Positions 5,164 to 36,710 of a stretch of DNA of 52,202 nt are shown piece after piece. The notes under the pieces were generated by a model. That model worked only from the letters and a program-made list of their open reading frames with translations, searched no databases and had not been told where the DNA came from. The translations under genes and the position numbers were made by a program. Numbering within the stretch: the first letter of the stretch is position 1; every line of letters starts with the position of its first letter. This DNA comes from Prevotella sp. (GTDB lineage Bacteria > Bacteroidota > Bacteroidia > Bacteroidales > Bacteroidaceae), in NCBI GenBank assembly GCA_017470345.1, contig JAFUEP010000004.1, positions 1-52,202 on the forward strand, written 5' to 3'.

Positions 5164-5174
5164 ATTAAAAACTA

Positions 5175-5259
5175 CCACGAATTTCACGAATTTGACGAAT
5201 TGATAGCTAGCGCATAATGGCTTAGCAGCAGTAATTCGTTTAATTCGAGAAATTCGTGG
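5175..5259. terminator. Inverted AATTCGT-repeat hairpin between convergent genes
   Basis: Arms at 5175-5201 and 5233-5259 pair over 27 nt with three mismatches and are built from repeated ACGAATT units. On the minus strand the stem is followed by TTTTT, so it may terminate the phosphatase gene. The same word makes a much larger structure at 36471-36648. Confidence 0.6.
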
Positions 5260-5276
5260 TCTCTTATAGAATCGTT

Positions 5277-11045: not shown

Positions 11046-11129
11046 AATGAAATCACGGCGTGACGCCATGCCGTCACGCCGTGATTTCATGCCGTCACGT
11101 CGTGACGGCATGGCGTCACGTCGTGGCGG
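11046..11129. repeat. Array of four 21-bp palindromic units (copy 1)
   Basis: Four 21-bp units follow each other; the last three begin with CATG at 11067, 11088 and 11109. Two hairpins are visible: perfect 19-bp arms at 11047-11065 and 11072-11090 with a 6-nt loop, and a perfect 25-nt palindrome at 11088-11112 centred on 11100. A near copy lies at 33779-33862. Both sit between convergent genes. Confidence 0.9.
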
Positions 11130-13127: not shown

Positions 13128-13237
13128 GGGAGTTTAGGAGTTTAGGAGTATAGGAGTTTAGACGATAGGCTTGTACGCGATAGCCATGGATTAGAACTAA
13201 CGTCTAAACTCCTATACTCCTAAACTACTGAACTCCC
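13128..13237. terminator. Large GTTTAGGA-repeat hairpin at the end of the arginine operon
   Basis: Arms at 13128-13164 and 13201-13237 pair over 37 nt with two mismatches. Each arm is itself a tandem run of an 8-bp word (GTTTAGGA). On the minus strand the stem is followed by TTCTTTTTC, which suits a terminator for the operon ending in argH. Confidence 0.7.
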
Positions 13238-23170: not shown

Positions 23171-23355
23171 TTTAAAGTAAAAGTGAATAGTGAAAAGTGA
23201 AAAATTTGCTTCCGCTCTCCTGTCTATCCATGGTTTAAAGTATAAGTGAATAGTGATAAGTGAAAAATTTGCTTCCGCTCTCCTAACTATCCATGTTTTA
23301 TTTCTTTATTCTTTGGGACAGCGGCAGCAAATTTTTCACTTTTCACTATTCACTG
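23171..23355. repeat. Composite direct and inverted repeat between proC and the XRE gene
   Basis: Two 62-nt direct copies (23171-23232 and 23234-23295, about four differences) are followed by an inverted part. A perfect 28-bp inverted repeat links 23182-23209 to 23327-23354. Its core TTTGCTTCCGC and the inverted GCGGCAGCAAA match the core of the element inside argC. The element fills most of the 202-nt spacer. Confidence 0.9.
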
Positions 23356-23370
23356 TTCCCTTATTAACTC

Positions 23371-25259: not shown

Positions 25260-26330
25260 TCAGAATGCTATTGCTTTTAGTTGAAGTCCTGTTTTCTCAT
25301 CGAGCCCAAACATCAGGTTCATGTTCTGGACGGCCTGACCGCTGGCTCCCTTGAGCAGATTGTCGATGACCGACGTGATGAGCAGCTTCTGCCCGTGCTT
25401 CTCGCAGTGCACCAGCGCCTTGTTGGTGCCGACGACCTGCTTCAGGTCTATCGGTTCATGGCTGTAGTGGGTGAAGGCTGCGTCGCGATAGAAGTCCTCG
25501 TAGGCCTCGACGACGTCCTCAATCGGAGCGGGCGTGCGCACCACTGCCGTGCAGAAGATGCCGCGGGCAAAGGGACCGCGATAGGGGATGAAGTCGATGT
25601 CGGCGTCGAGGTAGCCCTGCACCTGGCGCAGCGACTGGCGTATCTCGGCCACGTGCTGATGCTGGAAGGGCTTGTATATGCTCATGTTGTCGGAGCGCCA
25701 GGAGAAGTGGGTCGTCGCGCCGGGCTTCTGGCCGGCGCCCGTCGAGCCCGTGATGGCGTTGACGCTGACGTCCTCCTTCAGCAGGTTCAGATAGGCGGCG
25801 GGCAGCAGGGCCAGCTGGATGGCCGTGGCGAAGCAGCCGGGGTTGGCCACGCAGCAGGCTTGACGTATGGCGTCGCGGTTCAGCTCGGGCAGACCGTAGA
25901 CGAAGTTTCTTAGTGTAGAGTGGAGAGTGGAGAATGGAGAGTTTGCTGCCGCACTTGTTTCTTGCACAGCTTCTGCCGCGGTAGCAAACTCTACATTCTT
26001 CATTCTACACTCTACATTAGAATTGACCCTGAAGTCCTGGGCCAGGTCGATGATCTTCATGTCTGCCGGGATGTCGTGCTCGCGGAGGAAGGCCTCGCTC
26101 TTGCCATGGCCGAAGCAGAAGAAGACGACGTCGACCTCACTGAACGGCAACTGGTCGGTGAACCGCAGGTCGGTGTCGCCCACGAGTCCCTCGTGGACGC
26201 TGCTGACCGGGAGCCCAGCCTGACTCTCCGAATTGGCGAAGACGATCTCCGCATCCGGATGGTTGAGAAGCAGCCGGATCAGTTCGCCGCCCGTATAGCC
26301 GGCCGCGCCGAGAATTCCTACTCTTATCAT
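25260..26330 (-). CDS. argC: N-acylglutamyl-phosphate reductase with in-frame insertion
   Basis: This 356-aa NADPH-dependent enzyme reduces N-acylglutamyl phosphate to the semialdehyde. GILGAAGYTGGELIRLL opens the NADP fold, VANPGCFATA carries the catalytic Cys, and NAITGSTGAGQKPG and KQVVGTNKALVHCEKHG are typical. Relatives of about 320 aa go directly from DFR to the FVYGLPELNRD segment; here about 36 extra residues (VNSNVECRMKNVEF...SPFSTLHSTLRN) lie between. They are encoded by a 109-nt imperfect palindrome at 25911-26019. The reading frame is kept, and all catalytic segments are intact, so the enzyme is probably functional. Confidence 0.93.
   Translation of the reverse strand: MIRVGILGAAGYTGGELIRLLLNHPDAEIVFANSESQAGLPVSSVHEGLVGDTDLRFTDQLPFSEVDVVFFCFGHGKSEAFLREHDIPADMKIIDLAQDFRVNSNVECRMKNVEFATAAEAVQETSAAANSPFSTLHSTLRNFVYGLPELNRDAIRQACCVANPGCFATAIQLALLPAAYLNLLKEDVSVNAITGSTGAGQKPGATTHFSWRSDNMSIYKPFQHQHVAEIRQSLRQVQGYLDADIDFIPYRGPFARGIFCTAVVRTPAPIEDVVEAYEDFYRDAAFTHYSHEPIDLKQVVGTNKALVHCEKHGQKLLITSVIDNLLKGASGQAVQNMNLMFGLDEKTGLQLKAIAF
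25911..26019. repeat. Palindromic element inserted in frame inside argC
   Basis: Arms at 25911-25952 and 25978-26019 match over 36 of 42 nt around a 25-nt loop. The arms consist of GTAGAGTGGAGA-like words ending in TTTGCTGCCGC or TTTGCTACCGC. The core is shared with the intergenic element at 23171-23355. Confidence 0.9.
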
Positions 26331-26367: not shown

Positions 26368-26440
26368 AGCGACGGTGTTTATTATTTCAGCGTCGGTGAA
26401 ATACTAAACAGCGTCGGTGAAATATTAAACAGCGACGCCG
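26368..26440. repeat. 21-bp tandem repeat between argG and argC
   Basis: Three full 21-bp units start at 26368, 26389 and 26410 (AGCGTCGGTGAAATA...), and a partial fourth starts at 26431. The first unit carries the tail in inverted form (TTTATTATTTC). The unit length equals that of the arrays at 11046 and 33779, but the sequence is different. It occupies the middle of the 146-nt spacer. Confidence 0.85.
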
Positions 26441-30808: not shown

Positions 30809-32434
30809 ATGAACAATTCCGTCATCACATTCCCCATCCCGGCCAACGAGCCGGTGAAAGCCTATCTGGCCGGTTCGCCAGAGCGTGTCGCACTCGAAAA
30901 GGAACTGGAGCGCCAGTCGAAGCTGGTCGTCGACATCCCCATCATCATCGGCGGCAAGGAGATCCGCACCGGCGATGTCGGGCAGGTCACCTGTCCCCAC
31001 GACCATCATCACGTCCTGGCCACCTATCATAAGGTAGGCCGCAAGGAGGTCGAGCTGGCCATCGAGACCGCCATGAAGGCATGGCAGGAGTGGAGCCGCA
31101 CGCCGTGGACCACCCGCGCCGCCATCGTGATGAAGATGGCCGAGCTGCTGGCCACGAAATATCGTCCCATCATGAACGCTGCCTGCATGCTGGGCCAGAG
31201 CAAGAACATCTATCAGGCGGAGATCGACTCGGCCTGCGAGACCATCGACTTCTTCCGCTACAACGTCCACTACGCCTCGAAGATCTACGCGATGCAGCCT
31301 AAGGACGGACAGGGACAGCTCAACCACACGGAGTATCGTCCGCTCGAGGGCTTCGTCCTGGCCGTCACGCCGTTCAATTTCACCAGCATCGCCTCCAACC
31401 TCTGCATGACGCCCGTGCTGATGGGCAACGTGGCCATCTGGAAACCGTCGACCACGGCCCTGCTATCGAACTACTACCTCATGCAGCTCTATCGCGAGGC
31501 CGGACTGCCCGACGGCGTCGTCAACTTCCTGCCCGGCAGCGGCGCACTCATCGGCGAGGTGGCTACGCAGTCACGCCACTTTGCCGGCATCCACTTCACC
31601 GGCTCAACGGCCACGTTCAAGAGCCTCTGGATGCAGGCCTGCTCCAATCTCGACCGCTACGTCAGCTATCCGCGACTCGTCGGCGAGACGGGCGGCAAGG
31701 ACTTCATCTTCGTCCATCCCTCGGCCGATCCGAAGGCCGTGGCCACGGCGGCCTTCTGCGGCGCCTTCGAGTTCCAGGGCCAGAAGTGCTCTGCCGCCTC
31801 GCGCATGTATATTCCCAAGAGCATGTGGCCCGGCGTGCTCGACGACATCAAGCGCATGTGCTCGGAGATCAGGATGGGCGACGTCTGCGACCCGAAGAAC
31901 TTCGTCAACGCCGTCATCGACGAGGCTTCGTTCGACAAGTGCAAGCAGTACATCGACTACGCCGCTGCGGCTGCCGACGCCAAGATCGTCGTCGGCGGCA
32001 AGTGCGACAAGTCAGTGGGATGGTTTGTCGAGCCGACCGTCATCGAGACCTCCAACCCGCATTTCCGCTCGATGGAGGAAGAGATCTTCGGCCCCATCCT
32101 GACGGTCTATCCCTACGACGACGACAAGGTCGAGGAAACCGTGAAGCTGTGCGACGAGACGTCGCCATACGGACTGACGGGCGCCGTCTTCGGCCGCGAC
32201 CGCATGGCCGTCGAGAAGCTGACGGAGCAGCTCTCCTATGCCGCCGGCAACTTCTACATCAACGACAAGCCCACGGGTGCCGTCGTCGGCATGCAGCCCT
32301 TCGGCGGCGCACGCGCCAGCGGCACCAACGACAAGGCCGGCGGCGAGTTCAACCTGATCCGATGGATCATCCCGCGCGTCATCAAGGAGACGCTCGTCTC
32401 ACCGACCGACTATCGGTATACCTATATGAAATAA
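30809..32434 (+). CDS. pruA: L-glutamate gamma-semialdehyde (P5C) dehydrogenase
   Basis: This 541-aa aldehyde dehydrogenase oxidises glutamate semialdehyde to glutamate with NAD. Signatures: TPFNFTSIASNL, GNVAIWKPSTTALLSNY, LVGETGGKDFIFVH (catalytic Glu), and FEFQGQKCSAASR (catalytic Cys), then EEEIFGPILTVYPYDD and the QPFGGARASGTNDKAGG tail. The length equals the usual stand-alone P5C dehydrogenase of about 540 aa, with no proline dehydrogenase domain. It supplies the last step of arginine-to-glutamate breakdown; arginine deiminase begins 11 nt later. Confidence 0.95.
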   Translation: MNNSVITFPIPANEPVKAYLAGSPERVALEKELERQSKLVVDIPIIIGGKEIRTGDVGQVTCPHDHHHVLATYHKVGRKEVELAIETAMKAWQEWSRTPWTTRAAIVMKMAELLATKYRPIMNAACMLGQSKNIYQAEIDSACETIDFFRYNVHYASKIYAMQPKDGQGQLNHTEYRPLEGFVLAVTPFNFTSIASNLCMTPVLMGNVAIWKPSTTALLSNYYLMQLYREAGLPDGVVNFLPGSGALIGEVATQSRHFAGIHFTGSTATFKSLWMQACSNLDRYVSYPRLVGETGGKDFIFVHPSADPKAVATAAFCGAFEFQGQKCSAASRMYIPKSMWPGVLDDIKRMCSEIRMGDVCDPKNFVNAVIDEASFDKCKQYIDYAAAAADAKIVVGGKCDKSVGWFVEPTVIETSNPHFRSMEEEIFGPILTVYPYDDDKVEETVKLCDETSPYGLTGAVFGRDRMAVEKLTEQLSYAAGNFYINDKPTGAVVGMQPFGGARASGTNDKAGGEFNLIRWIIPRVIKETLVSPTDYRYTYMK

Positions 32435-33714: not shown

Positions 33715-33778
33715 CGGACGACCCGGTCCTTTTCTTCGCACCGTCCGCACGACACGACCTCCGCGGGCGGTGCTTTAA

Positions 33779-33862
33779 ACTTATGACACGACGTGACGCC
33801 ATGCCGTCACGTCGTGATTTCATGCCGTCACGTCGTGACGTCATGGCGTCACGTCGTGACGA
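33779..33862. repeat. Array of four 21-bp palindromic units (copy 2)
   Basis: Four 21-bp units; the last three begin with CATG at 33800, 33821 and 33842. Perfect 12-bp arms (CACGACGTGACG at 33787-33798, CGTCACGTCGTG at 33805-33816) enclose the same 6-nt loop as copy 1. It lies between the arginine deiminase gene and the convergent thioredoxin-like gene. Confidence 0.9.
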
Positions 33863-33972
33863 AAGTTATTTGAGTATTAAGATAAACTTGGTAATATCAA
33901 AAAAATAAATTGGTACAATTAGTCTGCCCCTGTAGGAGACGACGTGTCCGCACGTCGCACTTGCCGCAGGTG

Positions 33973-35792: not shown

Positions 35793-36414
35793 CCCCTACG
35801 GAGAAAGAAAAGGCGGGATTGACCGAATAGCGCAGCTCGGCACCGATGCGGTCGCCGATGTCCTGGCGCATGTAGTAGGGCAGCAGCATGCTTCGCTCCG
35901 AGAGAAGACTCTTCTGGGCGAAGACCGTGGCCTCCCAATGGTCGTCGAAACGATAGCTCAGCATGGCCGACAGCCCGCCGTCGGTGGTGGGGCGACCGCG
36001 CCAGTCGAGCCGGCTCAGATAGCCGCCGACGGCATAGCTGAGCCGCGAGGTGAGCGTGTCGGCATACATCAGCGACACGGTGTTGGCGAAGCCCGAGCCG
36101 CCATGACGCCCCAGTCCGACGATGCCGGCCAGCGAGAGCGAGCCGTTGAGCCCGCGGTGCAGCTGCCAGCCGCCGAGGTCCCCGTAGAAGGGCGACAGGG
36201 CGTAGGGATGCCACGCGACGGTGCCCAGCTGGCTCAGCGGCGGCAAATCTAGCAGCCATGTCCTGTCGTCATCGCAGACCAGCGTGTCAGCCGCTGCAGG
36301 CACCCCGGTGGTGGGGTGGGGCACCTCGAACGACTGATAGATGTCGTCCTGCGCCATAGCGGCCCTACCGAACAACATCATCATCATGGCTATGATCGTC
36401 AGCTTCTTGTTCAT
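35731..36414 (-). CDS. Putative beta-rich outer membrane or periplasmic protein
   Basis: This 227-aa protein has a signal peptide (MNKKLTIIAMMMMLFGRAAMAQ) and then alternating hydrophobic and aromatic strands: GSLSLAGIVGLGRHGGSGFANTVSLMYAD, RLSYAVGGYLSRLDW, AMLSYRFDDHWEATVFAQKS, RIGAELRYSVNPAFSFSVGVSV. This pattern suggests a small beta-barrel. I do not recognise a family. The last 20 codons overlap the RNA methyltransferase gene on the other strand, and the Pro-rich end (RTPQPPLPPR) comes from that overlap. A 296-nt repeat-rich spacer lies upstream. Confidence 0.7.
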   Translation of the reverse strand: MNKKLTIIAMMMMLFGRAAMAQDDIYQSFEVPHPTTGVPAAADTLVCDDDRTWLLDLPPLSQLGTVAWHPYALSPFYGDLGGWQLHRGLNGSLSLAGIVGLGRHGGSGFANTVSLMYADTLTSRLSYAVGGYLSRLDWRGRPTTDGGLSAMLSYRFDDHWEATVFAQKSLLSERSMLLPYYMRQDIGDRIGAELRYSVNPAFSFSVGVSVWRDPSAPRTPQPPLPPR

Positions 36415-36470
36415 GATAGTTTCACACCTCAGTTTTTTCTAAACAACGAATTCTAAACAATGTTTTTTGA

Positions 36471-36648
36471 ACAACGAATTAAGACGAATTACACGAATGA
36501 AACGAATTGAATCTTATTTCACGAATTGAATCTTATTTCACGAATTGATTTTTAATTTGTGTAATTCGTAATAATTTGTGTAATTCGTATTAATTCGTAT
36601 CATTCGTTTTAATTCGTTTCATTCGTGTAATTCGTCTTAATTTGTTGT
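36471..36648. repeat. Large AATTCGT inverted repeat
   Basis: A 38-nt arm at 36471-36508 pairs with 36611-36648 with one mismatch. Both arms and the interior are built from ACGAATT/AATTCGT words of about 10-nt period, and a 19- to 20-bp direct repeat (GAATCTTATTTCACGAATT) occurs twice inside. The spacer 36415-36710 holds no gene. Confidence 0.9.
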
Positions 36649-36710
36649 TTTATTTAAAAGTTTTTAAAAGTCCCAAGTGTTTAAATCCGTTGTCTAAGAA
36701 TTTATTCATG

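Follow-up and report, generated by a model that had tools for sequence, protein, structure and literature searches.

The argC gene of a Prevotella sp. genome (G000; 2.67 Mb, 61.55% complete) carries a long palindrome in the middle of its coding sequence, which raises the question of what this element is, whether it is read as protein and what might have brought it there. The window, that is, the whole stretch of DNA analyzed, comprises 52,202 nucleotides.

The palindrome in argC and its copies

A first-pass annotation, made from the letters of the window, had described a 109-nt palindrome lying in frame in argC (25911..26019), and the repeat search of the window bore this out: two arms of 42 nt each (25911-25952 and 25978-26019), 36/42 (86%) complementary, are separated by 25 nt. 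All six mismatches, as that annotation had it, oppose a G in the left arm to an A or a T in the right arm when read from the sequence. The hairpin has a folding energy of −49.9 kcal/mol (z = −7.24 versus 200 shuffles). The argC ORF is intact (356 aa, minus strand, 25260-26330 including the stop codon). The parts of this element, and of a second one in the window, are the following:

25260..26330, minus strand: argC, N-acetyl-gamma-glutamyl-phosphate reductase, the insertion host (ORF; Pfam PF01118 and PF22698; PDB matches)
25911..26019, minus strand: complete short element in argC, consisting of 31-nt heptamer arm, core, 25-nt loop, core and 31-nt arm (inverted repeat, copies elsewhere)
25911..25941, no strand assigned: heptamer-repeat arm of the GTGTAGA/GTGGAGA type, the 3′ arm on the coding strand (sequence)
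25942..25952, plus strand: core TTTGCTGCCGC, which recurs genome-wide
25953..25977, no strand assigned: variable loop; the core-to-core length of 47 nt is 2 mod 3
25978..25988, minus strand: core TTTGCTACCGC, in the argC frame TTT GCT ACC GC (sequence and ORF)
25989..26019, no strand assigned: opposite arm, the 5′ arm on the coding strand, with ATGAAGA instead of ATGTAGA as the second heptamer from the core
23173..23363, no strand assigned: second, composite element, in which two tandem half-elements of the GTGAAAA/GTGAATA type face one inverted half (cores at 23205, 23268 and 23321)

On the coding strand, the argC element reads ..NVECRMKNVE-FATAAEAVQETSAAAN-SPFSTLHSTL... In its 5′ arm, ATGAAGA takes the place of the stop-prone ATGTAGA, and thus no in-frame TAG arises. 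Between argC and an argG-like ORF (named by eye), two 21-nt direct repeats, CAGCGTCGGTGAAATAYTAAA, and a partial third one (26388-26429) may be regulator sites.

The encoded stretch of ∼36 residues had been thought to lack a counterpart in ArgC, and alignment with ArgC proteins from 29 other genomes agreed, as the full insert was absent from all of them. In 21, the DFR segment is joined to YGLPE by a short link; in the remaining 8, the loop is longer and differs in sequence, that of L027 being a probable heptamer remnant. In the AlphaFold model of ArgC (27-sequence alignment; mean pLDDT 82), residues 106-139 have a pLDDT below 50 and sit between the confident strands 92-95 and 143-145; this low confidence is partly expected because none of the relatives compared has a stretch matching the insert.

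The annotation had also seen the core recur in a nearby spacer (given there as 23171-23355), which is the composite element; it lies in the spacer between a 185-aa and a 251-aa ORF, the latter proC-like by eye. Within the window, TTTGCNNCCGC was found six times (0.64 expected), one occurrence (at 36237) lying outside any such element. In the whole of G000, the single core TTTGCTNCCGC is present 97 times and the paired core, TTTGCNNCCGC-N10-40-GCGGNNGCAAA, at 24 places, whereas the respective control patterns (reversed, for the pair) yielded 0. The arms beside these cores are tandem heptamers of the GTGTAGA, GTGAAAA/GTGAATA and GTGAAGA types; heptamer number varies between copies, and half-elements occur in tandem. 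Across the genus, exact pattern searches, which miss decayed copies, placed the core pair in 71 of 398 genomes (G000 included), with a patchy distribution and up to 24 copies per genome, the reversed control giving single matches in four. Elsewhere in the order, none of the 294 genomes searched had the pair (reversed control: single matches in four); only three of these belong to the same family.

These numbers support the earlier proposal of a mobile or spreading element that tolerates insertion into coding DNA, as Rickettsia palindromic elements (RPE) do; neither observation that would have spoken against it was made, as the residues are absent from the relatives and further copies of the core are many. 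They also decide against a non-mobile origin, be it a loop extension evolved by the host or a chance palindrome. ArgC loop length does vary naturally among proteins and solved structures, but the same peptide and DNA occur in unrelated genes of G000 and of other genomes, and the reversed-pattern controls gave zero matches in G000 and single ones in four of 398 genomes; such an origin is already refuted by the copies. Three properties go beyond the first-pass annotation and are treated below: the rule on reading phase, the heptamer make-up of the arms and a full-length version encoding a PF05635 protein.

Several loci deserve mention on their own account. L011 and L019 (G000 contigs C31 and C47) are a near-identical gene plus element on two contigs, reflecting duplication or an assembly effect; both have 30-nt in-frame arm duplications in the left arm. 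At nine half-element loci (L053, L088, L089, L090, L094, L096, L097, L099 and L101), the TAA of the upstream ORF lies exactly 29 nt before TTTGC; this TAA falls at the arm terminus TAAGG, so that either the elements were inserted at stop codons or they brought the stop with them. The lutB-lutC spacer (L349-L378) is in full, half or other repeat states depending on the genome, and is a possible insertion hot spot. Of its 30 loci compared, a LutC start could be placed in 29 and a lutB end in 26, some of these ends being clearly wrong ORFs. No exact empty site was obtained from the ArgC loop or the lutB-lutC spacers, both being too diverged to give a target duplication or precise ends.

Reading phase of the copies inside genes

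In total, 94 copies were read, 24 from G000 and 70 from other genomes; the latter were taken among the matches listed, with at most five per genome, from 29 of the 70 other positive genomes. A copy was considered intragenic when the longest ORF 150 nt to the left and 150 nt to the right of the core was identical, which applied to 51 of the 94 (18/24 in G000, 33/70 in the other genomes). On either strand, 50 of these 51 read TTT GCT NCC GC (phase 0), and in every one of these 50 the core length is 2 mod 3 (35, 41, 44, 47, 53 or 62). In contrast, the 43 copies outside ORFs show a random distribution of core length mod 3 (17, 15 and 11 copies with remainders 2, 1 and 0, respectively), and the difference (50/51 versus 17/43) is significant (Fisher p = 8e-11). 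The other genomes alone gave 32/33 versus 14/37 (p = 1e-7), and when shared host sites were merged, phase and length followed the rule in 40 of 41 intragenic copies (p = 3e-9). One G000 copy, L006, was assigned phase 0 on the basis of a 379-aa plus-strand ORF with an epimerase match; a longer shadow ORF would give phase 1. The exception, L188, enters in phase 2, has a core of 48 and exits in the usual phase; unusual entry with usual exit indicates two compensating shifts. Outside the 94 copies, the peptide of six loci found by peptide similarity and lacking an exact core pair (L192-L197) lies in a long open frame in five.

In-phase stop codons within the 28-nt 5′ arm were found in 0 of the 50 sense arms versus 37 of 50 when the antisense of the same copies was read; the former value is forced by the ORF criterion, the latter is not. 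The two other sense phases contain stops in 48/50 and 44/50 arms, and the remaining copies have an in-phase stop in 72 of 88 arms (both arms of L188 included). One open phase, the rule on core length and the stop counts together suggest an insert that is translated and on which selection acts through the host protein. Judged from these sequences, the element is very probably translated in the manner of RPE, and we infer that this holds for the insert in vivo.

Translation of the insert has to be weighed against its removal from the mRNA (intron-like excision or RNase III processing) or its skipping by ribosome bypassing, either of which would leave the protein unchanged. A long hairpin would suit such events, and, according to excerpts of the report, the related element in Coxiella rRNA is excised by RNase III (PMC4990558). 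An open frame would be needless if the element were skipped, yet intragenic copies have a single open phase and retain their core length mod 3, and stops are abundant when the other phases or the antisense strand are read. Moreover, rRNA stays fragmented after such excision, an outcome that would disrupt an mRNA. Removal or skipping is thus very unlikely.

Leaving L188 aside, there are 49 distinct intragenic host ORFs, and all 40 of those scanned have a Pfam match. Among them are ArgC (two genomes), CTP synthase, an RNB-domain ribonuclease (two), topoisomerase, PriA, GMP synthase, carbamoyl-phosphate synthase, RsmF (two copies in one gene), a radical-SAM/ferredoxin protein, M24 peptidases, ABC transporters, a sigma factor and a histidine kinase, in which the insert lies within the HisKA match; others are of loose or undefined function, for example, DUF6055. 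In several homologous genes, inserts occupy the same site across species (by eye). At L161:3-2051, the element sits where a CarA-type domain meets a CarB-type one within a single open frame, and it may have fused two neighboring genes.

In-frame, protein-building palindromes are best known from Rickettsia (PMC10969869), where, in the passages available, RPE are described as small palindromes in frame within many unrelated genes and read as protein (PMC10969869, PMC3733652). The likeness, which is one of description and not of sequence, lies in the in-frame position within many unrelated ORFs (51 of 94 copies intragenic, 50 of them in one phase). The present element differs from RPE in occurring in another phylum, in having arms of tandem heptamers and in possessing a full-length, protein-coding relative; the nearest named relatives of its ArgC mark the carrier as a Prevotella-type member of the Bacteroidales. 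It constitutes an independent, patchily distributed case outside the phylum of Rickettsia, in which 51 natural insertions into conserved proteins were read.

The full-length form and its PF05635 gene

Two core pairs of G000, 414 and 488 bp long when the cores are counted, surround ORFs of 134 and 125 aa (L087 and L097). Both match PF05635 (84.7 and 89 bits) and TIGR02436, and the one that was searched against solved structures matches PDB 2rld. The short element and these elements with a PF05635 gene (IVP) have arms and core in common; the argC copy itself has no PF05635 ORF, the IVP being encoded by the full-length form only. To our knowledge, PF05635 has no catalytic domain, and domain searches recognized no nuclease or integrase encoded by the full-length form.

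The genome contains 10 PF05635 genes, two of which have TTTGC cores. Eight of the 10 lie between inverted repeats that exceed the 99th percentile of mismatched flanks; the repeat unit, mostly 7 bp, is own to each of these loci, and most have their own core. Of the other two, L278 is cut by a contig end (inverted-repeat score of 16.0 on a 79-nt flank, borderline) and L284 is weak. L278, the best PF05635 hit near a contig end, was considered as a possible insertion in 23S rRNA, and this was rejected for lack of an Rfam match; no rRNA match was found by Rfam in L278, L284, L087 or L097.

Wide core pairs (∼400 bp apart) were present in 32 of 398 genus genomes (control 0). When 30 such loci were read, 28 enclosed an ORF of more than 120 aa starting at or just after the core, and all 28 ORFs match PF05635; the other two loci (L302 and L303) enclose no IVP ORF. 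Removing G034 and G337 leaves 30 of 398 genomes counted as having an IVP, two of which (G162 and G244) were judged from the match start only. Short copies occur in 23 of these 30 versus 48 of the 368 others (p = 1.7e-13, a value that ignores kinship and overstates independence). Seven IVP genomes have no short copy, and 48 of the 71 short-copy genomes have no full-length form by the exact pattern, which overlooks pairs with another spacing and those lost to incomplete assembly.

Protein clade and heptamer type coincide in 54 of 54 classifiable arms (28 elements; 2 of 56 arms unclassifiable; Mantel r = 0.73, p = 2e-4), clades having been assigned from sequence motifs and dialects from the three bases that precede the core, with both labels defined after the sequences had been seen. 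This agreement is also expected from simple co-descent of arms and gene. The short copies follow the same division: genomes with an A-clade IVP have 28 A arms and no B or C, and those with a B-clade IVP have 5 A (all in G144), 17 B and 6 C (A versus B genomes, p = 6e-11; unclassified arms were omitted, as was G000, which has both IVP types). The IVP gene itself is under purifying selection (dN/dS of 0.06 to 0.21 in five close pairs).

The dialects also bear on the history of argC. Its loop has been hit by three heptamer types: type A is present in G000 and type B in G117 (L155), and the remnant in G034 (L027) is C-like. This suggests that the ArgC loop is a tolerant site that received repeated insertions rather than one inherited event.

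Mobility, known relatives and generality

The findings are best accommodated by regarding the argC insert as a non-autonomous, MITE-like copy of a heptad-armed mobile element with a PF05635 parent, which would have spread and been retained in frame; we consider this probable. The element consists of two inverted arms made up of tandem 7-bp repeats, each ending on its inner side in a TTTGCTNCCGC core, and of a loop between them, which in the full-length form encodes a four-helix-bundle protein of the PF05635/TIGR02436 family (23S rRNA intervening-sequence protein, S23). Short copies, retaining arms, cores and a small loop, would have spread through the genome, and those landing in a gene in the one open phase would persist as a translated insertion of ∼35 residues. 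The IVP may drive mobility by acting in trans, where it would probably bind the heptamers, be it as DNA or as an RNA hairpin, and would thereby mobilize both forms. Movement would most likely proceed through the hairpin (DNA or RNA), the chemical steps being left to host enzymes. Copies within genes would then survive if the frame is kept (50/51 by phase 0).

Like a MITE, the short form is small, non-autonomous and built of inverted repeats, and it has its termini in common with a coding, full-length parent; unlike in a MITE, this parent encodes no recognized transposase. Mobilization by a reverse transcriptase was considered and rejected, as PF00078 had 0 hits in G000, which, the genome being 61.55% complete, is weak evidence.

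Palindromes of such small size are often REPs, which makes movement by a RAYT (Y1/HUH) transposase, the mechanism proposed for REPs, worth weighing; the link to PF05635 would then be incidental. The size is typical, the copies are dispersed palindromes, many of them intergenic, as in REP/REPIN-RAYT systems, and G000 does encode one Y1_Tnp domain with an HVH motif in its translation. However, this sole Y1 domain is not beside the copies: the 3.2 kb around it are devoid of TTTGC cores and of heptad arrays of this type (other RAYT genes are possible in a genome 61.55% complete), and it is flanked by other repeats, by eye those encoding GGDVSHVATED-type peptides. The TTTGC arms and cores flank PF05635 genes instead, and REP/REPIN systems differ from the present element in its strict in-frame coding class. 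A RAYT-driven origin is distinctly unlikely.

The Y1 locus itself (L318:1-3213; G000:C35, ∼31873-32097) shows a RAYT-like domain nested in frame in a DNA-methyltransferase-like ORF (by eye ...GNALRMDW... to ...YDYIIGNPPF...). With GGDVSHVATED-type repeats on both sides, it possibly represents a second family of in-frame mobile insertion. The CACGACGTGACG/TCACGTCGTGA palindromes of the window (11054-11125 and 33778-33867) resemble, by eye, the repeats around this domain.

A dedicated protein would not be needed at all if the arms arose by replication slippage and hairpin template switching and were spread by gene conversion, with PF05635 genes as passengers. Variable heptamer number, tandem half-elements, the 30-nt arm duplications in L011/L019 and the lack of a recognized nuclease or integrase in the full-length form are what such a process might leave behind. 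It accounts poorly for identical cores and arms at unrelated sites in many genomes and for an IVP gene that is under purifying selection and tracks the arm dialect. Slippage as the full explanation is unlikely, somewhat less so than a RAYT.

Another of the closest described systems is the 23S rRNA intervening sequence (IVS) with its S23/IVP ORF. In excerpts on Coxiella, the IVS has a 28-bp terminal stem and, depending on the strain, two to three GACAGAT heptamers upstream of the S23 ORF; earlier workers suggested that this ORF served mobility, and the IVS is suspected to be mobile, the function of the ORF being called unknown (PMC4990558). As far as these excerpts go, both systems have a PF05635-type ORF inside an inverted repeat, with heptamers. 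They differ in that IVS are described in rRNA genes, whereas the present elements lie between or inside protein-coding genes and have short, ORF-less derivatives. Tandem 7-bp repeats, TAACTGA, are reported from Beggiatoaceae and some Bacteroidetes in passages of another study; in contrast to the present arms, those of the main genome in that study are mostly direct repeats that precede start codons, and a search of its text found no mention of a helix bundle, 23S rRNA or S23 (PMC4679880). PF05635 genes are, in an excerpt, also reported in cas loci (PMC3936711). No account of heptad-armed PF05635 elements outside rRNA, or of in-frame palindromes in Prevotella, was recognized in titles and abstract beginnings of the open-licence literature.

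How general the arrangement is was assessed in a sample of the phylum Bacteroidota, in which 75 of 99 genomes (G000 included) have PF05635. At 30 PF05635 loci, one per genome, the flanks match as inverted repeats beyond mismatched pairs (p = 6e-13), an effect that is modest per locus (17/30 above the 95th percentile, 4/30 above the 99th). Flank autocorrelation peaks at lag 7 (0.371 versus 0.268 at control positions), and the highest value falls at lag 7 or 14 for 23 loci and at lag 8 for the other 7. That heptads are a mere property of gene flanks was rejected, as the flanks of 41 argC genes show neither signal.

A wider reading, to which we give slightly less than even credence, is that PF05635/S23 genes, including those in 23S rRNA IVS, are the autonomous members of a widespread class of mobile elements that lacks a recognized transposase and is defined by inverted heptad arms. 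The four-helix-bundle protein would read its own heptamer dialect and drive full and short forms, the latter acting as a natural agent of in-frame protein insertion in core enzymes of Prevotella-type rumen bacteria. Heptad arms, dialects and the match with protein clade turn the puzzle of rRNA-IVS mobility into a testable system of recognition and mobility.

The window contains further arrays. An inverted repeat between ORFs (13128-13237) has arms of 41 nt with a period of 8 (GGAGTTTA) and a loop of 28 nt, and may be the short form of another dialect. Two intergenic inverted arrays (5174-5260 and 36470-36649) consist of ACGAATT units with a period of ∼9 to 10.
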